From Macellibacteroides fermentans (GTDB lineage Bacteria > Bacteroidota > Bacteroidia > Bacteroidales > Tannerellaceae): a stretch of 64,000 nt of DNA. Below the pieces are notes generated by a model. That model had not been told where the DNA came from. It searched no databases and worked only from the letters and a program-made list of their open reading frames with translations. Of this stretch, positions 43,142 to 51,526 are shown in pieces. Positions within the stretch are counted from its first letter, which is position 1; each line of letters begins with the position of its first letter. Where the stretch lies: assembly GCF_013409575.1 (NCBI RefSeq), contig NZ_JACCCY010000001.1, positions 310,001 through 374,000 on the forward strand, read 5' to 3'. The translations under genes and the position numbers were made by a program.

Positions 43142-44023
43142 TTATTCCATTGCACCGCTTTGAAGTACTTTAGAATGTGGAGGCACACTGTGTGTCAACC
43201 AGATGTTACCACCAATAACAGAGCCTTCTCCAATAGTTATTCTGCCAAGGATGGAGGCATTTGAATAGACTGTAACCCAGTCTTCCAAAATGGGATGTCT
43301 GGGCACATCCAAAGGCAGGCCCTCGTTATCAAGGATAAAATTCTTAGCCCCAAGTGTAACCCCCTGATACAAACGGACATGGTTGCCGATAACCGCAGTT
43401 TTACCGATAACAACTCCCGTACCATGATCAATACTGAAATACTCTCCTATTTTGGCTCCCGGATGTATATCTATACCCGTATTGGAATGGGCTATTTCTG
43501 TGATAATACGAGGTATTACAGGCACCCCAAGATTTAAAAGGCAATGGGCTACCCGTTGATGAAGTATAGCCTGTATGGCCGGATAGCAAAATATTATCTC
43601 GCTCAGACTTTTTGCTGCAGGATCTCCATCTAATATCGCTTTAATATCTGTCGACAATAAATATTTAATATGTGGAATATGATTAATAAACTCTACGGCA
43701 ATATTGGAAGAACGTTCTTTTGAATCTGAACACCCTTCAACTTCAAAGCATAACCCATGAAAGATTTGCTCTTGCAATAAATCGTAAAGTTGTTCCAAAT
43801 GAACACCCATATAATATTCCATCGAATGTTCTTTAGCCTCTTGTTCAGTACCAAAGAAACCGGGGAAAATTATCTTTTTCAATAAATGCATTATCTTTTT
43901 AAGCTCATCTACCGAAGGCGATGGCTTTTGATGCAGTGGAATATATTTATACTCCGGCAAGTTGGAGGTAGATAATTTCGTTACGTTTTTTTGAATTTCC
44001 TCCAAAATCTGACTTCTGTTCAT
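43142..44023 (-). CDS. cysE: serine O-acetyltransferase
   Basis: A 293-residue enzyme that makes O-acetylserine, the first step of cysteine synthesis. The N-terminal helical domain (~1-170) is followed by a left-handed beta-helix of hexapeptide repeats (IHPGAKIGEYFSIDHGTGVVIGKTAVIGNHVRLYQGVTLGA in register; catalytic His in SIDHGTG). The length fits the SatA/CysE type with an extended N-terminus. It starts 2 bp after the Kelch lipoprotein stop, so it is translationally linked to the end of the signalling operon, an odd place for a cysteine gene. Confidence 0.92.
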   Translation of the reverse strand: MNRSQILEEIQKNVTKLSTSNLPEYKYIPLHQKPSPSVDELKKIMHLLKKIIFPGFFGTEQEAKEHSMEYYMGVHLEQLYDLLQEQIFHGLCFEVEGCSDSKERSSNIAVEFINHIPHIKYLLSTDIKAILDGDPAAKSLSEIIFCYPAIQAILHQRVAHCLLNLGVPVIPRIITEIAHSNTGIDIHPGAKIGEYFSIDHGTGVVIGKTAVIGNHVRLYQGVTLGAKNFILDNEGLPLDVPRHPILEDWVTVYSNASILGRITIGEGSVIGGNIWLTHSVPPHSKVLQSGAME

Positions 44024-44025
44024 AA

Positions 44026-45870
44026 TTAATTATCCCAAATGGGATCATATTTTTTCATAGACGTCGAAAAAACACTCATTCCTATATATATTGAACCATT
44101 AAGCAACATCATACTATGGCCTTCATCTTTATACCCTCCAAGTGTACTTTTACTCGTCCAGACTTTTTGTTTTATATTATACTCCCAAATTCTGTTGTTG
44201 GAGTCAATTACATAAAGTAAATCATTCAGTATTACTCCACTGCTTATAGTCCCGGCAAGATTAGGAATTTCAGTTTCTTCCTTCCATGTACTCATATCAC
44301 CGGACGAAATCCATAAGGTCTTGGTGGAAGTCGACTCGCCTGTTTGTCCCAACCCTGCAAAGATAGTATCATTTTTACTCAGAACAATGCCTCCATAATG
44401 ACTAGTGGGGAAATTCTCTATTTGTTGCCATTGACCACTATTGATATTATACCTCCAAACCTCATTTAAAATAGCATTGGTTGTGCGTCCTCCTATAACA
44501 TAGCCATAGGTTACAGACCCCTTTGATTGGACGGTTGCTTTAGCACTCCATCTGGGTGTTCCAGGAAAAGGTGGCAATATTTCCCATTCATTAAGAGAAA
44601 CCTTATATTTATAAAATTCAGTAGTTGGCTGACCTGGATTAACTAATCCGCCTAATAAATAAGCTGTTGCATCTGTCGAAAACGCTGTCACAAATTTTCT
44701 TCCTCCAAGAGGAAAAATATTTCTATCTCGCCATGAATTAGATATCGGATCAAATTCCCAAACTACATTGCTGTATGATTGACCTACATCCCCCCCAACT
44801 AAATAAGCCCGGCCGTACGAACTGAAAGCAGCTGCTCCAGTAGGTCGATAACTTGTGAAAGGAGCCATATCAGTAAATACTGGTGGAGCAGGAAAAATGA
44901 CTTCTTCTCCATATGAAGTGCCTATACTGTTTGTAGCAAATGCTCTAATATGATATATTTTTCCTCCATTGATTTTTTCTAAATAACCAGAAAAAGCACC
45001 TGTACCTGGTGTAAAGTTGAATACATTATCCTGTATTGTAGGTTCATTGCTAAAGGACCAACAAATTCCCCGGGCTGTAATCTCAGAATAACCCATATCT
45101 ACTACTATCCCCCCAACTTTAACCTTTCCATCTTTATTATCATTAAAAATCGAAGTTTTAACTGTTGGTAGAGCGTTCAGAGTTGTAAATTGGATTGAGT
45201 CACTATATTGTACGCCATAACTGTTAACAGCAAACGATCGTGCATAATAGGTTGTATTTGCCTGTAGATTCTTGATCGTTGTAGAAAATTTGCCTTTTCC
45301 GGATCCTACATGGACTGTATCATCTTTAATTGATACAGATGCAGATTCCGAAAAACAAAATCCACGTACAGCAGTTGAATCCCCCTCGTTAACGACCTCC
45401 GATTCCAGATCAACATCATACGTTCTTACCTGTAAAAGTTTCAATAGAGCAATAGTAGGCATTCCAGAAGTGGTTACAACAGTTTTTTCTTCTCCGTATG
45501 CCGTACCTTTAGCATTAATAGCATAAGCCCTAAGATAATATGTTTTATTGGCAGAAAGACCTTTTACTTCCGCAGTGAATGAACCTAGTCCATTTCCGGC
45601 AGGCACCTTGTTAACAGCCGATACCGGAGAAGATGTACCCCAGCAAATTCCTTTCTCTGTGACTTCTGCGCCATTTGCCTGTAGAACAGCTCCCGAAACT
45701 GTAATAGTGGTAGCAGAGTAAGACTCTACCGAAGAGGTTTCCACCTCTGGAGTTCTGGCATTGAATACTTCATCTGGTACCGATGGATCATCCAAACACG
45801 ATTGAAAAATAAATAATCCAGTCAGTAATGACAGAAACAATCTTGTATATAGTTTTGAAGTTGTATCCAT
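44026..45870 (-). CDS. FN3/Kelch surface lipoprotein
   Basis: A 614-residue lipoprotein (lipobox in LTGLFIFQSCLD), so it is anchored to the outer membrane and probably exposed. Residues ~45-330 hold three FN3-like beta-sandwich repeats, each with a GICW/GFCF core and a TYYLRAYAINxxGTAYG strand. Residues ~330-614 form a Kelch-like propeller with repeats such as AYLVGGDVGQSYSNVVWEFDPISNSW and YVIGGRTTNAILNEVWRYN. It likely binds a surface ligand or partner. It lies last but one in the kinase operon, 4 bp after the beta-barrel gene, and may be its sensing or output arm. Confidence 0.8.
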   Translation of the reverse strand: MDTTSKLYTRLFLSLLTGLFIFQSCLDDPSVPDEVFNARTPEVETSSVESYSATTITVSGAVLQANGAEVTEKGICWGTSSPVSAVNKVPAGNGLGSFTAEVKGLSANKTYYLRAYAINAKGTAYGEEKTVVTTSGMPTIALLKLLQVRTYDVDLESEVVNEGDSTAVRGFCFSESASVSIKDDTVHVGSGKGKFSTTIKNLQANTTYYARSFAVNSYGVQYSDSIQFTTLNALPTVKTSIFNDNKDGKVKVGGIVVDMGYSEITARGICWSFSNEPTIQDNVFNFTPGTGAFSGYLEKINGGKIYHIRAFATNSIGTSYGEEVIFPAPPVFTDMAPFTSYRPTGAAAFSSYGRAYLVGGDVGQSYSNVVWEFDPISNSWRDRNIFPLGGRKFVTAFSTDATAYLLGGLVNPGQPTTEFYKYKVSLNEWEILPPFPGTPRWSAKATVQSKGSVTYGYVIGGRTTNAILNEVWRYNINSGQWQQIENFPTSHYGGIVLSKNDTIFAGLGQTGESTSTKTLWISSGDMSTWKEETEIPNLAGTISSGVILNDLLYVIDSNNRIWEYNIKQKVWTSKSTLGGYKDEGHSMMLLNGSIYIGMSVFSTSMKKYDPIWDN

Positions 45871-45874
45871 ATTT

Positions 45875-46828
45875 TTAAAATATTAATCCAATACCTGCAT
45901 TTAAATCGGCAAATTCTAAATTAATCGAGTTACAGCCCACACTAAAATAAAAGTTCTTACTCACTTTTACAATCGCATCTGCATCTGTTTCTATCCCCTT
46001 ATAGGATCCGGTTACATTTTCACACCAAAGCTCTGTTGTTAAACTATTGTTTGAATAGCTATAGGCTGTGGCATGCCATTGTAATTCACGTTCGCCATAC
46101 CCTACCCCAACTGAAGCGGACAACCAAGGCAAGATTTTTACAATCAATCCCCCTGTAATTCCAAAACGGGAAATACGTTCTCGGTCAAATTTATAATAAG
46201 CACCTTCCGTATAGTTTAAAATACCAGATTCATTACAGTCGACTGTTGTTTTACCAAATGTCATATTTGACTTCAATCGCAAATAACCGCCCCATCGTTT
46301 ACCAAGTAGGCCAAACGTTATTCCATAGGGTGCAGACGGAGTAAAATTATAACCTATGATCAGATTCAGCGGTGTTGGTTTTTCTTTAGGTGAAGGTAAA
46401 CGTTTCTCTAAAGCGGGCAATTGTTCCTCTGGCTTTGACAATTTTGACAACTGTTCTTCCCAATAATTTGCCAGCTCCGGACTCTCGGGTGTACCTATAC
46501 CATGTTCGTAATAAAGGATGAGCCGGGCTATTGAAGCAGTATCATTCTCCGTCGCTTTTATATTGAGACAATTCAGGCATTTAGTCATTAAGCTACGCAT
46601 CGGAATCCGAAACTGTTCGTTTTCAATCCAGATAGTCGTCAGCTTATCAATACTATAACTATCGCAAAACGAAACTCCTTCTTCGAACCACATTTTGGCA
46701 TCAGCAAGATCATTTCTGGATAATGCCTCATTTCCTTTTTCATTATATTCAGTCAGCCTTTGAGCACTAAGGTTTAAAGGCCCAATAATTAAAAACAACA
46801 ATAAAAGAAAACGACTCATAGGTTTCAA
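45875..46828 (-). CDS. predicted outer membrane beta-barrel protein of the kinase operon
   Basis: A 317-residue exported protein (signal near RFLLLLFLIIGPLNLSAQ). Residues ~25-135 are helical and TPR-like (NEKGNEALSRNDLADAKMWFEEGV), followed by a Pro/Lys/Glu-rich linker. The C-terminal half (~150-317) has alternating strands, many Gly and aromatic residues, and ends in GIGLIF with a terminal Phe, as in outer membrane barrels. The family is not recognised. It starts 3 bp after the kinase gene, so the two are coupled and the product probably acts at the envelope in the same pathway. Confidence 0.7.
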   Translation of the reverse strand: MKPMSRFLLLLFLIIGPLNLSAQRLTEYNEKGNEALSRNDLADAKMWFEEGVSFCDSYSIDKLTTIWIENEQFRIPMRSLMTKCLNCLNIKATENDTASIARLILYYEHGIGTPESPELANYWEEQLSKLSKPEEQLPALEKRLPSPKEKPTPLNLIIGYNFTPSAPYGITFGLLGKRWGGYLRLKSNMTFGKTTVDCNESGILNYTEGAYYKFDRERISRFGITGGLIVKILPWLSASVGVGYGERELQWHATAYSYSNNSLTTELWCENVTGSYKGIETDADAIVKVSKNFYFSVGCNSINLEFADLNAGIGLIF

Positions 46829-46831
46829 GTA

Positions 46832-48661
46832 TTAATAGTATGTAACGCCTTTACTCACCAGTTCGCATGATGAATTATATATATCAAAAAGATTATCTTC
46901 ACGTTCAAAAGCTCTACCCTTTTCAGCCTTTCCAACACTTAGATATACACATGGTATGCGATCGATCCCTTTTGAATCAATAGCTCCGTATTTACCAGTT
47001 GATTTGTTTCTAACTATCATGTAATTTCCAAAAGGCATTTTCTCTTCGTACAAAGATCTCCTATTAGAAATCACACTTTGTTCTTCCATTGAATCACAGG
47101 TAATTAATAAACGCAAAATTTCTTCTGTTAATGAGAGTTCTTTAGCCTTATTAAAATCATTCCTCGCGCCCTGATAATCACCTTTAGCCAATTTCTTCTT
47201 TCCTAAATCAAGTAGACTGGCATAATCAGTATCCGGTGTTTTAGCCGGTACAGGTTGCACATCGGGTTCGTTAACAGACGTAATATTATCCTTTATTGTC
47301 TGATCAAGAGGAGTCACAGTTAAAAGGGAAGAATTGTTTTTATGTTCTTCCGCATTATTCAATACCAATGTATCCGTATTCTTGCGATTATCCTCCGAAA
47401 CTGTCAAAGGCTTTTTGTCATCTATCGGCTCTGGAATGTTATCGGAGTTCCTTGATTTTAAATTTATAAAATACAGAACTGTTCCAACGCAAACAAAAAT
47501 AATCAACGAGATTAAAATTGGTTTAAAATAATTCCTACGTTTAACAGGTCCTCCCTCCAGTTCATCTACATTTCCTCTTTCAAGTATTGTATCGTCATCC
47601 GGATTAGAGACAGGCTCTTCATTGCCTTGTAAAATAGTCTTTGTATTTTCATGAGTCGGTTCCTCCAGATCAACCCTTCGGGTTAGCGTATAAAGTTCCG
47701 TAGCATCATCCGCCTGGGATGTACCATTCACCCCATTAGTCTTCTCTCTAACCTCTCTTTCAGGGGAAGGTCCCAATGCCAATATCATCTCATTAACAGA
47801 TTGAAAGCGGTCGGCTTGAACTATAGCCATCGCCTTCATAATAGCCTCTTCTGTTCTTTCAGAAATTGAAGAATTAAGCTCAGATGGTTTTTGCAAAGGC
47901 TTAGCGGCACGTAGAATTGATTCGGTAGGTATTTTACCAGTCAACAGATTATACATAGTAGCACCCAGCGAATATATGTCCGGACAGGGAGAGAAATTCT
48001 GAGTTCCTTCATCGTCATATTGCTCCACAGAAGCAAATCCTTTGGAAAGAGTAAGCATCGTTGTGCTCGTTTCCTGTTGAAACAAATCATATCGTTTACT
48101 AACTCCGAAATCGATTAAACGGGCATTGTCGTCCTTGTCGATTAATATATTACTGGGCTTGATATCCAGGTGGAGTATACTTTTCTCGTGAACAAACTGA
48201 AGGGCATGAGCAATTTGGTGTGTATAAAAAAGAACCGTATTTTCGGAAAGTCTTCCCTCCTTTTCAAGTAAGTACTTCAATGAATACCCTTGAATATATT
48301 CCATGGCGATGTAAGCTGTATCGTTCTCTTCAAAAACTTCAAGCACATTAACGATATGTGGATGATGTACATCCGACAATATTTTCGCCTCTTTAATTAA
48401 CTTCTCTTTAAATTTTTCAAATAAAGCTCTTCCTGTTTCCGAATGAACCTTTACAGCAAAGGTTTCTTCATCCCGATAACAGTAATCTTTAAAAAAATAT
48501 TCTTTGATACAAATAGGAACTTCCGTCTTGACTTTACCCAACGATCCCTTAACCTCGGTAAACCATACACCTTTGTATGTTATACCAAAGCCTCCTCGGC
48601 CAACGGTTTCAGTTAGCTGATATTTCCCTTTTTGAAGATAATGCCCAGTTGGTAATTCCAT
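46832..48661 (-). CDS. transmembrane Hanks-type Ser/Thr kinase
   Basis: A 609-residue kinase with a cytosolic N-terminal kinase domain (~8-290): Gly loop GRGGFGITYKGV, AMEYIQGYSL hinge, catalytic loop HLDIKPSNIL (Asp166, Lys168) and DFGVSKRY. The usual HRD Arg is Leu, so it is a non-RD kinase and may not need loop phosphorylation. A linker with many Thr/Asp residues leads to one membrane helix (~378-400). The exported part has a TPR-like pair (~470-520) and a WG-repeat-like end (GKYGAIDSKGIDRIP). Phosphatase, FHA proteins and an envelope pair lie in the same operon. Confidence 0.93.
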   Translation of the reverse strand: MELPTGHYLQKGKYQLTETVGRGGFGITYKGVWFTEVKGSLGKVKTEVPICIKEYFFKDYCYRDEETFAVKVHSETGRALFEKFKEKLIKEAKILSDVHHPHIVNVLEVFEENDTAYIAMEYIQGYSLKYLLEKEGRLSENTVLFYTHQIAHALQFVHEKSILHLDIKPSNILIDKDDNARLIDFGVSKRYDLFQQETSTTMLTLSKGFASVEQYDDEGTQNFSPCPDIYSLGATMYNLLTGKIPTESILRAAKPLQKPSELNSSISERTEEAIMKAMAIVQADRFQSVNEMILALGPSPEREVREKTNGVNGTSQADDATELYTLTRRVDLEEPTHENTKTILQGNEEPVSNPDDDTILERGNVDELEGGPVKRRNYFKPILISLIIFVCVGTVLYFINLKSRNSDNIPEPIDDKKPLTVSEDNRKNTDTLVLNNAEEHKNNSSLLTVTPLDQTIKDNITSVNEPDVQPVPAKTPDTDYASLLDLGKKKLAKGDYQGARNDFNKAKELSLTEEILRLLITCDSMEEQSVISNRRSLYEEKMPFGNYMIVRNKSTGKYGAIDSKGIDRIPCVYLSVGKAEKGRAFEREDNLFDIYNSSCELVSKGVTYY

Positions 48662-48702
48662 CAGTACTAAAGTAAAGATTCATCTTGACAAATTTACTGA
48701 TT

Positions 48703-49506
48703 TTATATGAAAGAATAAAAAAATGAGAGTATAAAATGCTTGATAGAAACGGTTTCCTGAACATTATTCACTGGAATAATGAAAAATGAAAAGTTATCTC
48801 TGGATATATTGTTGCACGCTTCAAGAACTTCTGTCTTAAGCAAATCTGAAGAAACATTTTTTTCAAATAAACCGGATAAAGCCTTGTCATCAAAACATTC
48901 CATAACCCCATCAGAACACATAAAGAAATAATCACCGGGAGTTACATTCGTAATCAATGTAACTTCAGCCTGAACCGGATTTTCTGTTCCGCTTATCGCT
49001 TTTAATATCACATTTTTTTGTGGATGACTGCTAACCTCTTCCGGTTTTATGCGTCCGAGTTTAACCAGGGAATTGACAAGAGAGTGATCAACGGTTTCAT
49101 GTAAAATCTGCCCCTTTCTGAATTGATAAATCCTACTATCCCCAATATGAGCAAGCGTCATACCATTGGTTCCAACATAAAGAAGGGCCATGGTTGTTGC
49201 CATCCCTTTAGCTGAAGGATTGGATGATACAAAATCGTCAAAACGAGATTCAGTATATTTTACAGCCTGATTAATAAATTCTTCGGTAGGATTTCCCTGC
49301 AAAAAGGAACTGAAGTATGTCTGCAACGATTCACAAGCTAACGCACTTGCTATTTCGCCCTTTTCAGATCCACCTACGCCATCGCATACAATAAACAATC
49401 GCTGCTTAGGACTCGATACTTCCGGCTGAGGATATACTGAATCTTCATTATTCAGTCTGCCACCTCTTTCACAAACAGCAAATGGTTGTCCCATCATTAT
49501 ATCCAT
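48703..49506 (-). CDS. PP2C-family Ser/Thr phosphatase
   Basis: A 267-residue metal-dependent phosphatase of the PPM type, similar to Stp/PrpC. Visible motifs are NNEDSVY, CDGVGGSEKGEIAS (metal Asp), MTLAHIGDSRIYQF, and YFFMCSDGVMECFDD with the second metal Asp. There is no membrane segment or extra domain apart from a short C-terminal tail. ATGs 9 and 12 bases downstream could also start it. It stands between the FHA gene and the kinase gene and should reverse the kinase's action. Confidence 0.93.
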   Translation of the reverse strand: MDIMMGQPFAVCERGGRLNNEDSVYPQPEVSSPKQRLFIVCDGVGGSEKGEIASALACESLQTYFSSFLQGNPTEEFINQAVKYTESRFDDFVSSNPSAKGMATTMALLYVGTNGMTLAHIGDSRIYQFRKGQILHETVDHSLVNSLVKLGRIKPEEVSSHPQKNVILKAISGTENPVQAEVTLITNVTPGDYFFMCSDGVMECFDDKALSGLFEKNVSSDLLKTEVLEACNNISRDNFSFFIIPVNNVQETVSIKHFILSFFYSFI

Positions 49507-49521
49507 AGCCTGATCCTTCCA

Positions 49522-50037
49522 TTATTCATTAAACCTGAGGATGGTCTTTCCGATCACTATTTCATCGTTGTCTTTCAAAACAACAACTTCTCCATTCTCA
49601 AGGCATGTGTTATTATACAAAGTTTTATTCTTACTGTTATTGTCGGACAAAAAATGTTTATAAACTCCCCCACCCTCATGCTTCACTTCAATTTTAATGT
49701 GCTCGCGACTCATGCACTTATCCATCGTAACTATACCGATGGTCGCTTTTGAGGCTTCCGACTTACGTCCTGCAATCAATATCCCCTCGTGAAGGAGAAA
49801 TGTTTGAGCAGGAGTGTCAGAGTTTGGTAGTACGGTAATTGTACCGGAAGTTGCATTTCGATGTTTAACAACAACAGTCGGTGTCTCTGTTTTATTCAAA
49901 GACCTTAATTGTCCAAGTAATGAAACCGCAATAGGTTTTGTACATTTTGGACATTTAAATGAATCAATCGTAGACGGGATTTTTGTCTCGTCTATTTTAA
50001 GCCCAACTTTACAATATGGACATTTGATTGAAATCAT
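49522..50037 (-). CDS. zinc-ribbon FHA-domain protein
   Basis: A 171-residue protein with an N-terminal zinc ribbon of the MJ0042 type (CPYC and CPKC pairs) and a C-terminal FHA domain (~80-170; AGRKSEASKATIGI, SREHIKIEV, LYNNTCLENGEVVVL), which binds phosphothreonine peptides. It is cytosolic. Its start overlaps the stop of the small acidic protein gene (ATGA), and its stop is 15 bp before the phosphatase. It should read kinase output. Confidence 0.9.
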   Translation of the reverse strand: MISIKCPYCKVGLKIDETKIPSTIDSFKCPKCTKPIAVSLLGQLRSLNKTETPTVVVKHRNATSGTITVLPNSDTPAQTFLLHEGILIAGRKSEASKATIGIVTMDKCMSREHIKIEVKHEGGGVYKHFLSDNNSKNKTLYNNTCLENGEVVVLKDNDEIVIGKTILRFNE

Positions 50038-50279
50038 AACATAAAGGATGCGTCTGAATCGTCTAGATCAATTGAAGACATATCAATAACATCTGCATCA
50101 GTCATGAAGACGGTGTCATCCGACAGAGTAATCAAATCAGATCCGGACATATCATCATCCAACATGACTGCATCAAATGAAAGAGTATCACTCTCAACAT
50201 CTACAATAAAGCTCTCTGAGGCATCCATAAAGTCACCATTATCAATTGTGACAAATGTGTATTCTTCTGCTTTTTCCAT
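50034..50279 (-). CDS. small acidic protein of the kinase operon
   Basis: An 81-residue protein of unknown family with very high Asp/Glu and Ser/Thr content and no signal peptide or membrane helix. It has two Thr-x-x-Asp sites, T51 in TLSD and T60 in TDAD, the sequence type favoured by many FHA domains when the Thr is phosphorylated. It is translationally coupled to the FHA protein downstream and driven by its own promoter. It is a plausible kinase substrate and FHA partner, but this is inferred only from composition and position. Confidence 0.7.
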   Translation of the reverse strand: MEKAEEYTFVTIDNGDFMDASESFIVDVESDTLSFDAVMLDDDMSGSDLITLSDDTVFMTDADVIDMSSIDLDDSDASFML

Positions 50280-50302
50280 ATCTATAATTATTATTTACAA
50301 CG

Positions 50303-50334
50303 CAAATGTACGAAAAGAAATCCGTAATAATCAA
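50303..50334 (-). promoter_or_regulatory. internal promoter of the kinase operon
   Basis: On the minus strand, TTG, a 21-nt spacer and TACATTTG lie 24 bases before the small acidic protein gene. This would allow the acidic-FHA-phosphatase-kinase part to be expressed apart from the first two genes. Confidence 0.6.
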
Positions 50335-50402
50335 GCCTTATCCGGACCTTAATCCAACTACAGGCATTCTTGTACAAAAGGCATGTTTTTCGATACGAAC
50401 AA

Positions 50403-51053
50403 TTAGAAGCTAACCCATTTGGCCTTACAGGAAGGAACCGGACATTGTTTTTTGTTACGTAGAGATTCCCACGGGATTTCACCAAGGAAGGTGCCGCATT
50501 TGGGACAAACATAATCAATCTTAAACTGGTTGGAAATATCTTGAAGAAGCTGAGGTATTTTGGCCGACTGCTTGGCTCCCATATAAATCCCAATCGTAGG
50601 GGCACAAATGGCCAAAGAAAGACTTAATCCGAAAAGCTGTGGTGTTCCGTTTCCCCAAAAACCTACAGCAATACCCACTACACCTGGTAACGCAAAGGGC
50701 AACGACTGAAATAACCTGGTTTTAAACTGATTATTGGATTGGATTTTGATTTTTTCACTGATGTATTTTTCATATACATCTTTCAGGGCGAGAAAGTCTT
50801 CACTATAGTCATTTACAGATCTTAAGGCACTCTTTATATCTAAAACGTATTTATCACCTAAGATAATTGAATCCGAAGAACAAATTTTCTTCTTTACAAC
50901 CTGACAACCATTCACATACGTCCCATTGGTCGATTGAATATCTTCAATAAACCATCCTTGTTCGTTTCGAAGCAAGTAAGCATGATGCCTGCTCACATGG
51001 TCGTCATTCACAATATAGTCATTATCACTGGCTTTTCCTATTCGTATTATCAT
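50403..51053 (-). CDS. membrane FHA-domain protein with C-terminal zinc ribbon
   Basis: A 216-residue protein. The FHA domain is at the N-terminus (~1-75; IGKASDNDYIVNDDHVSRHHAYLL and STNGTYVNG, the full FHA core). Two short hydrophobic helices follow (~118-165), then a C-terminal zinc ribbon with CPKC and CPVPSC. It is probably a membrane-tethered phosphothreonine reader with a cytosolic FHA domain. It starts 26 bp after the LytTR gene on the same strand. Confidence 0.88.
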   Translation of the reverse strand: MIIRIGKASDNDYIVNDDHVSRHHAYLLRNEQGWFIEDIQSTNGTYVNGCQVVKKKICSSDSIILGDKYVLDIKSALRSVNDYSEDFLALKDVYEKYISEKIKIQSNNQFKTRLFQSLPFALPGVVGIAVGFWGNGTPQLFGLSLSLAICAPTIGIYMGAKQSAKIPQLLQDISNQFKIDYVCPKCGTFLGEIPWESLRNKKQCPVPSCKAKWVSF

Positions 51054-51079
51054 CTCATTGTATAATAATAAGATTAATT

Positions 51080-51457
51080 TTACATTTTTGCATCTTCACG
51101 AATCTCATTTTCAAGAGAATCTTTCAGCACTTTTAACGGATCTTTCGAAATAATCAGCTCGCGGGCTTTACCTTCTGCCGTAAGCAACAAAAGCTTTTGT
51201 CTTGGCAGATTTATTTGCAAAATATGATTCTTGTTGATTATATGACTTTTGCCAACCCTCATTAATATCATTTTACATCCTGTAACCTGATTTTCAAGAA
51301 TCTCCTCTATCTTACCAATATTAATTGCAAAAGTAAATTGAATCCCGTTATTTAAAATCAACTTGGTATAATTACGATCTGCTTCGAAATAAAGAATTTG
51401 TTCAATTCTTATTCTCAACAACTCATCTCTTGTTTTAATAATTAAATATCTATCCAT
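51080..51457 (-). CDS. stand-alone LytTR DNA-binding protein
   Basis: A 125-residue protein consisting almost only of a LytTR domain (LRIRIEQILYFEADRNYTKLIL, FMRVGKSHIINKNHILQI-type core), without a receiver domain. LytTR domains bind promoter DNA as beta-sheet modules. As the first gene of the kinase/FHA operon it may regulate the operon and respond to signalling through protein partners rather than phosphorelay. Its own promoter lies just upstream. Confidence 0.9.
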   Translation of the reverse strand: MDRYLIIKTRDELLRIRIEQILYFEADRNYTKLILNNGIQFTFAINIGKIEEILENQVTGCKMILMRVGKSHIINKNHILQINLPRQKLLLLTAEGKARELIISKDPLKVLKDSLENEIREDAKM

Positions 51458-51486: not shown

Positions 51487-51520
51487 CAAATATAGACATT
51501 ATTTTTTATTGATTAACAAA
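51487..51520 (-). promoter_or_regulatory. promoter of the LytTR/kinase operon
   Basis: On the minus strand, TTTG, a 22-nt spacer and TATATTTG, about 30 bases before the LytTR gene. Confidence 0.6.
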
Positions 51521-51526
51521 ATTACA

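Follow-up and report, generated by a model that had tools for sequence, protein, structure and literature searches.

What could join a stand-alone DNA-binding protein of the LytTR family to a Ser/Thr kinase, a PP2C phosphatase, two FHA proteins and two proteins of the cell envelope? The question is raised by a locus of Macellibacteroides fermentans (Tannerellaceae) in a stretch of 64,000 nucleotides, called here the window (contig NZ_JACCCY010000001.1, positions 310,001 to 374,000, forward strand). Eight open reading frames (ORFs), from lytTR to the gene of a Kelch lipoprotein, lie on the minus strand between 51457 and 44026, just where a preliminary description of this DNA had placed them. 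This gene set is more than a chance assembly, and we see an even balance of chances that it forms a LytTR switch of the cell envelope which activates itself and is gated by Ser/Thr phosphorylation, resembling the LytTR regulatory systems (LRS). Below, G000 is the window's genome, other G-numbers are genomes of relatives and L-numbers are fetched stretches. The eight genes are, in window coordinates:

51080..51457, minus strand: lytTR, a 125-aa stand-alone LytTR DNA-binding protein without receiver domain (Pfam LytTR, 39.9 bits)
50403..51053, minus strand: fha1, an FHA domain, a two-helix membrane hairpin and a C-terminal Cys4 zinc-ribbon-like part (Pfam FHA, 60.6 bits)
50034..50279, minus strand: acidic gene, a candidate phospho-adaptor of 81 aa with no Pfam match
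49522..50037, minus strand: fha2, a zinc-ribbon-like N-terminus (sub-threshold) and an FHA domain (Pfam 40.2), with an ATGA overlap with the acidic gene
48703..49506, minus strand: PP2C phosphatase (Pfam PP2C_2, 53.4 bits; NCBIfam Stp1-like, below the model cut-off)
46832..48661, minus strand: Hanks-type kinase (Pfam Pkinase, 143.1) with a predicted transmembrane segment at residues 378-401 and an exported C-terminal part
45875..46828, minus strand: OmpX/Ail-like outer-membrane barrel with a helical N-terminal part; no Pfam match, AlphaFold predicted local distance difference test (pLDDT) score 88.5
44026..45870, minus strand: Kelch-propeller lipoprotein with an FN3-like region and a lipobox Cys25 followed by acidic residues

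The gaps between them, in gene order, are 26, 123, -4 (the ATGA overlap), 15, 41, 3 and 4 bp, which bears out the tight spacing first reported, of 3-123 bp with a single ATGA overlap. In the same order, Pfam gives LytTR, FHA, no match, a sub-threshold zinc ribbon plus FHA, PP2C, Pkinase, no match and Kelch; no Rfam family exceeds its gathering score anywhere in the window. The protein identities proposed at the outset stand for LytTR, both FHA proteins, PP2C, kinase, barrel and Kelch, but the zinc ribbon and the fn3 region fall below the Pfam cut-offs.

Conservation and natural splits of the gene set

A search for FHA1 in 60 relatives gave 31 loci, from 29 matching family genomes and two further records that may overlap with them; the six family genomes without an FHA1 match in that search fall outside the 31. 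In 23 of these loci the set is complete, colinear and on one strand (22 by BLAST, and L054, where the acidic gene was found by a hidden Markov model, HMM). The others are cut by contig ends (L059, L063, L067, L038), split (L061, L062, L066) or divergent (L068), and frameshifted or stop-interrupted genes occur among the complete loci in L041, L055 and L060. The 4-bp overlap of the acidic gene and fha2 is kept in 24/26 loci. Because order and strand recur across the family and this overlap is so often retained, the set is more than a chance neighbourhood.

The system is widespread in the Tannerellaceae, FHA1 being found in 107 of the 123 family genomes. A kinase ortholog (E below 1e-150) is present in 104/107 genomes with FHA1 versus 1/16 without it (Fisher p 1.8e-15, a value that ignores phylogeny and missing sequence), and in that one genome, G094, a contig ends within or beside the acidic gene. 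Many of the genomes are incomplete metagenome-assembled genomes, so joint absence is partly missing sequence. None of FHA1, the LytTR ortholog, the kinase, the barrel and PP2C was found in G028 (99% complete) or G016 (98%), and no LytTR ortholog (threshold E 1e-25) was found in the 11 checked of the 16 FHA1-lacking family genomes. Co-occurrence across related genomes had been named beforehand as the test that might refute a common system, and it was found at the level both of loci and of genomes; the original observation is right, and stronger than first stated.

The system looks eroded in genus g15, where in-frame stops or truncated frames occur in L060 (G023) and L055 (G029), and neither FHA1 nor a kinase ortholog was found in G016, G034 and G146; assembly errors or incompleteness are possible there.

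Genomes in which the set is broken up are informative. In G021 and G026 the break lies at the joint between PP2C and kinase, with kinase-barrel-Kelch elsewhere. G011 has three blocks, LytTR-FHA1, acidic-FHA2-PP2C and kinase-barrel-Kelch-cysE, and G400, from another family, has two, LytTR-FHA1 and acidic-FHA2-PP2C-kinase-barrel-Kelch-cysE (the acidic match being weak, E 4e-4). These block-wise splits show which genes travel together: lytTR and fha1 are adjacent in 4/4 of these genomes. All eight genes are retained in each, which argues for their functional coupling. The opposite view, that the eight are plain neighbours whose order is kept by low rearrangement, could appeal to the flanking ppdK and hydrogenase genes, which also adjoin the set in several loci. 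We consider it very improbable, given that the genes are absent together from two near-complete genomes of different genera, that every block is still there after relocation, and that repeats and promoter keep the geometry described next.

Two probable promoters and a 21-bp repeat element

The eight genes had been described as one operon. Order and strand agree with this, but the promoter evidence favours two transcription units. The relevant features are:

51487..51521, minus strand: P1, upstream of lytTR, with -33 TTTTG at 51521-51517 and -7 box TATATTTG at 51494-51487
50342..50400, minus strand: operator-like element of three direct repeats with a period of 21 bp (50399-50388, 50378-50367 and 50357-50347), in the 123-bp gap before the acidic gene
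50303..50310, minus strand: P2 -7 box TACATTTG, without a conserved -33 box

At P1, the Bacteroidetes-type -7 box TAnnTTTG is found in 25 of 27 regions upstream of lytTR (2.5 expected), and TTTG lies in the -33 window in 14/25 (1.2 expected). At P2, the exact TAnnTTTG occurs in 22/25 gaps between fha1 and the acidic gene (2.2 expected), with TTTG in the -33 window of only 3/25 (1.3 expected). Since promoter evidence exists both upstream of lytTR and in this gap, there are probably two transcription units, the second starting at the acidic gene.

The repeat element forms a conserved ungapped block across 24 loci, just upstream of P2. Over lags 3-35 its self-similarity is highest at 21, and 0/5000 column permutations attain that peak. 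A model built from the 24 loci recovers the element in 21/21 outside loci (E 5.9e-6 or better), namely L067 and 20 taken from better FHA1 matches; these being related genomes, the result tests conservation and not independent origin. The start of the third repeat precedes the -7 box (TAnnTTyG) by 47 bp in 17 loci and by 48 bp in 8, that is in 25/25, and the bases that separate them look poorly conserved. A constant phase, the lack of a -33 box and a repeat spacing of two helical turns are the features expected of an activator-dependent promoter.

The candidate activator is LytTR. In LRS, as set out in PMC6193735, to which all our statements on these systems refer, the gene of a stand-alone LytTR protein is paired with that of an inhibitory membrane protein. 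The LytTR protein HdrR acts at 9-bp repeats that are separated by 12 bp (period 21) and lie immediately in front of its promoter, with positive feedback. Both the repeat geometry and the proximity of lytTR point to LytTR as the likely binder of the 21-bp repeats, and by this analogy the second transcription unit is probably LytTR-activated. The lytTR product is itself conserved, with 58-95% identity to the window's protein in 18 family sequences and 38% in the divergent L068. In one stretch (L054:6528-8593, G004) LytTR and the start of FHA1 occur twice, flanking a run of N, which probably reflects an error of assembly.

A different regulator might bind the repeats, with LytTR acting on other genes. 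There are 11 LytTR matches in G000, no strong element is seen where the acidic block lies far from lytTR, and G016, in which a search gave no ortholog of this lytTR, bears a similar repeat pair before an ABC-permease-like gene. We nevertheless judge this explanation quite unlikely, since repeats two helical turns apart, in fixed phase with a -33-less promoter and beside lytTR, reproduce the LRS layout (PMC6193735), and a simplified repeat pattern is not in excess elsewhere in G000 (47 occurrences genome-wide versus 54 for reversed-pattern controls). The latter count means that no wider regulon is seen in G000.

We also ran the repeat model (R1) over 24 family genomes to look for a wider LytTR regulon. 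The site in the gap between fha1 and the acidic gene was recovered at E 2.2e-6 or better in 16/24 genomes and more weakly in G014 and G021; there was no site at this gap in G003, G005, G009, G011, G016 and G017, where no such junction was seen. Nine weaker extra sites were inspected, and a wide regulon was rejected: five lay within ORFs, two were intergenic (L148, L150), one stood beside a tRNA-like sequence and one in a terminator-like hairpin (the last two by eye). The pair in G016 mentioned above is one of the intergenic sites (L148:6376-6412), with repeats TTTTGTACATTAA and TTTTTGTACAT about 21 bp apart; from it, other regulators may use such sites.

Phosphorylation proteins and the proposed switch

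The AlphaFold model of FHA1 (pLDDT 85.3) has an FHA domain, two long helices and a small C-terminal part, in which Cys 183, 186, 204 and 209 are invariant in the alignment. Its FHA domain is structurally near the solved FHA domains of Rv1747, ArnA, GarA, FhaA and OdhI; those of GarA, FhaA and OdhI bind phosphothreonine. FHA domains contact phosphothreonine through S, R, H and N residues and usually carry GR; in FHA1, S21, R22 and H24 are invariant, N43 is nearly so, and GK stands at the usual GR position. No homology to known LRS membrane proteins was found for FHA1 with Pfam and NCBIfam, where only FHA-type families match. There are three FHA matches in G000, two of them within the locus. The third is a lone FHA2-like protein, with a zinc-ribbon-like N-terminus and an FHA domain, encoded downstream of a dnaJ-like gene (L069:8788-9336, G000:C2).

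The kinase has the catalytic motifs GRGGFG, HLDIKPSN (HLD for HRD) and DFG, and it is the only Pkinase match found in G000. Its transmembrane segment was called by a hydrophobicity script and by eye. The exported part had been called TPR/WG-like; Pfam gives no match there, but a conserved stretch, YGAIDxKGxExIPCKY, is seen, which looks WG-like. Between the catalytic domain and the membrane lies a candidate FHA docking site:

47582..47596, minus strand: juxtamembrane motif DDTIL in the kinase linker

Motifs of the type [DE]xT[ILV], followed by a mostly hydrophobic residue, occur in this linker in 19 of 21 full-length kinases (29 occurrences versus 1.1 in shuffles). The acidic protein, for which 27 homologs including the window's were gathered, has a [DE]xT[ILV]-type motif in 22/27 sequences (24 occurrences versus 4.8 in shuffles), and its positions 8, 11, 51 and 56 are Thr in 84-92% of 25 alignment rows. 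These acidic-x-Thr-aliphatic motifs of linker and acidic protein could be FHA ligands. The PP2C of the window carries the NED, DGVGG, GDSR and DHS motifs, and together with 26 homologs it matches the metal-binding patterns NED and DG[VM]GG; two later patterns, perhaps too narrow, fail in 22/27 and 6/27 rows, and the window's protein passes all six. The G026 copy was left out of this set by its length.

Taken together, these components suggest the following switch. P1 would yield basal LytTR and its membrane partner FHA1, which, as the membrane partner does in LRS, would restrain LytTR at the inner membrane. The outer-membrane Kelch lipoprotein and barrel, with the exported part of the kinase, would report the state of the surface or envelope, and the kinase, once active, would phosphorylate acidic-motif Thr residues both in its own juxtamembrane linker and in the acidic protein. 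Binding of FHA1 and FHA2 to these phospho-Thr sites would alter the hold on LytTR; freed LytTR would bind the three 21-bp-spaced repeats and activate P2, thus raising the acidic protein, FHA2, PP2C, kinase, barrel and Kelch (often CysE as well), and PP2C would reset the switch. The surface-to-DNA phosphosignalling route first put forward is, in this form, the best reading of the locus, and co-occurrence agrees with it, but the coupling of kinase to LytTR goes beyond what the analysis demonstrates. Its fullest version is held only tentatively, at somewhat less than even chances: an LRS-type pair whose partner has turned into a phosphothreonine reader, a single envelope Hanks kinase that throws a self-amplifying switch with barrel and Kelch as sensor and output, and a core that in relatives would drive caspase-like proteins.

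Several observations weigh against the proposed switch. The GK of FHA1 departs from the usual GR. The acidic-x-Thr motif was defined only after the alignments had been viewed, and the linkers, being homologous, are not independent samples, as the shuffles would have them; the motif is missing in 2/21 linkers and 5/27 acidic proteins. The PP2C of G026 (L061:11473-12168) lacks NED and DGVGG, and is probably a pseudophosphatase because these motifs are lost; the kinase is retained elsewhere in that genome. G400 and G011, whose acidic block lies away from LytTR-FHA1, showed no strong repeat element, and the relocated kinase blocks L118-L120 showed none. The simplified pattern, as said, shows no excess in G000, and the repeat letters have no obvious match to those in Table 3 of PMC6193735. 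Finally, no kinase ortholog or barrel was found in G112, which has LytTR to PP2C, or in G120, which has LytTR-FHA1, and in both the LytTR-FHA1 pair lies inside contigs; part of the set can therefore persist alone, unless the assemblies miss the rest.

These last two genomes bear on a further explanation, which we consider unlikely: that kinase, PP2C, FHA and envelope proteins work together in a complex for assembly or quality control, comparable to the adaptors FhaA or GarA, with LytTR setting P2 by another cue, independently of phosphorylation. That G112 and G120 keep LytTR-FHA1 would fit it, as would the ability of the blocks to sit apart in a genome and the resemblance of FHA1's FHA domain to the adaptors GarA and FhaA. 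It accords less well with the adjacency of lytTR and fha1 in all four split genomes and with the missing LytTR orthologs in the FHA1-lacking genomes checked; in LRS, furthermore, the membrane protein controls LytTR (PMC6193735).

As to the envelope proteins, the Foldseek matches of the barrel are Ail, OmpX and OmpA. In the lipoprotein, Kelch models score above the Pfam cut-off and fn3 just below it (24.1 vs 25), and in all 23 Kelch homologs listed at least one of the three residues after the lipobox Cys is acidic (the acidic positions, and the L048 row, were read by eye). Acidic residues after the lipobox Cys can serve as a surface-export signal in Bacteroidetes. The set is followed by one more gene:

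43142..44023, minus strand: cysE, serine acetyltransferase (Pfam Hexapep; NCBIfam cysE below cut-off), 2 bp after the Kelch gene

On 13 fetched stretches both cysE and the Kelch gene were found, with no more than 8 bp between them in 12. In G026, G011 and G400 cysE has gone along with the kinase block; it was not seen in G021. It is possibly the end of the second transcription unit.

Wider relatives and known systems

The FHA1 profile was matched in 38 of 393 sampled genomes of the order, in many of them through no more than the FHA domain; five of the 38 belong to the family. Wider-relative loci were taken from 20 further fetched stretches and L068. LytTR, a membrane FHA protein, kinases, FHA2 and PP2C are combined in L101, L115 and L068, and likewise, without a recognised kinase, in L116; several kinases are present in L068 and L101, one in L068 with an FGE-sulfatase domain. 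In L068, L115, L116 and L109 the gene directly upstream of FHA2 encodes a long acidic protein; in L101 such a gene has another place in the cluster. These proteins resemble the 81-aa one weakly and with a bias from composition (in a set of 7 sequences, the best domain E was 1e-4), so that a relationship is no more than suggested. A caspase-like gene, whose product probably has a signal peptide (judged by eye), is found at L068:12241-12993, L101:12051-12761 and L116:12088-12807, recognised by Pfam Peptidase_C14 in L068 and L101 and by eye in L116. The clusters of L068, L115, L101 and L116 thus resemble our locus in LytTR, membrane FHA, FHA2, PP2C and acidic gene, and differ from it in the caspase-like gene (L068, L101, L116), and in the long acidic proteins; HMMs recognised neither a barrel nor a Kelch ortholog in these four.

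Among systems known elsewhere, PknB-GarA, PknB-FhaA and PknG-OdhI of Actinobacteria have similar FHA domains, a Hanks kinase and acidic-Thr motifs. Their targets are metabolic enzymes or cell-wall proteins, and we know of no LytTR factor in this signalling. In EmbR and ArnA, too, an FHA domain reads the output of a kinase to control transcription. ArnA resembles FHA2 in combining a zinc finger with FHA, and EmbR has in one chain the DNA-binding and FHA parts that are separate proteins at the locus. Anti-phage defence (PADLOC PD-T4-6, MADS) was rejected as an assignment, as only the kinase and PP2C match and the other six proteins have no match.

Kinases, FHA and PP2C proteins of other systems are covered in PMC7159879, which has no mention of LytTR. 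The parts of the locus are of known kinds, and for their wiring, initially thought undescribed, we found no account: the literature searched, which had few subscription papers or preprints and was for the most part judged by listing, gave no description of the whole eight-gene system, but the pairing of LytTR with a membrane protein does parallel LRS (PMC6193735).

As of 2018 the only characterised LRS were HdrRM and BrsRM of Streptococcus mutans, with signals then unknown; one section title ties BrsRM to purine metabolism (PMC6193735). In LRS the LytTR gene comes first and the membrane partner second, and the 9-bp repeats are mostly 12 bp apart (PMC6193735). Our locus likewise has a receiver-less LytTR gene directly followed by a membrane-protein gene, a pair intact in the four split genomes, and direct repeats two helical turns apart before a promoter of the locus; the 21-bp period and the fixed distance to the -7 box agree. 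In contrast to LRS, the partner is an FHA and zinc-ribbon-like protein, there are three repeats instead of two, and they precede a downstream promoter instead of that of lytTR itself; the locus further adds a Ser/Thr kinase, PP2C, a second FHA protein and two envelope proteins. Since putative LRS are also listed whose membrane proteins are unrelated, homology among the membrane proteins may not be essential (PMC6193735).

Closer in taxonomy are the LRS-like operons of Bacteroides (PMC6193735, Table 3), also of the Bacteroidales, with repeats before a TAnnTTTG promoter and 45 bp, summed from that table, between the second repeat and the TA of the -7 box, against 47-48 bp here. They differ in that an NfeD/DUF2154 membrane protein precedes a LytTR protein bearing its own transmembrane segments, in 11-bp repeats with an 11-bp spacer, and in that no kinase is mentioned for them in the accessible part of the source. 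The input and gating of an LRS-type system become testable at our locus, because the partner has a phospho-Thr reader and adjoins the only Hanks kinase found in G000, a phosphatase and likely envelope sensors. By this comparison the locus works like an LRS; we do not class it as a member, because its partner protein is unrelated and its repeats precede the second promoter.

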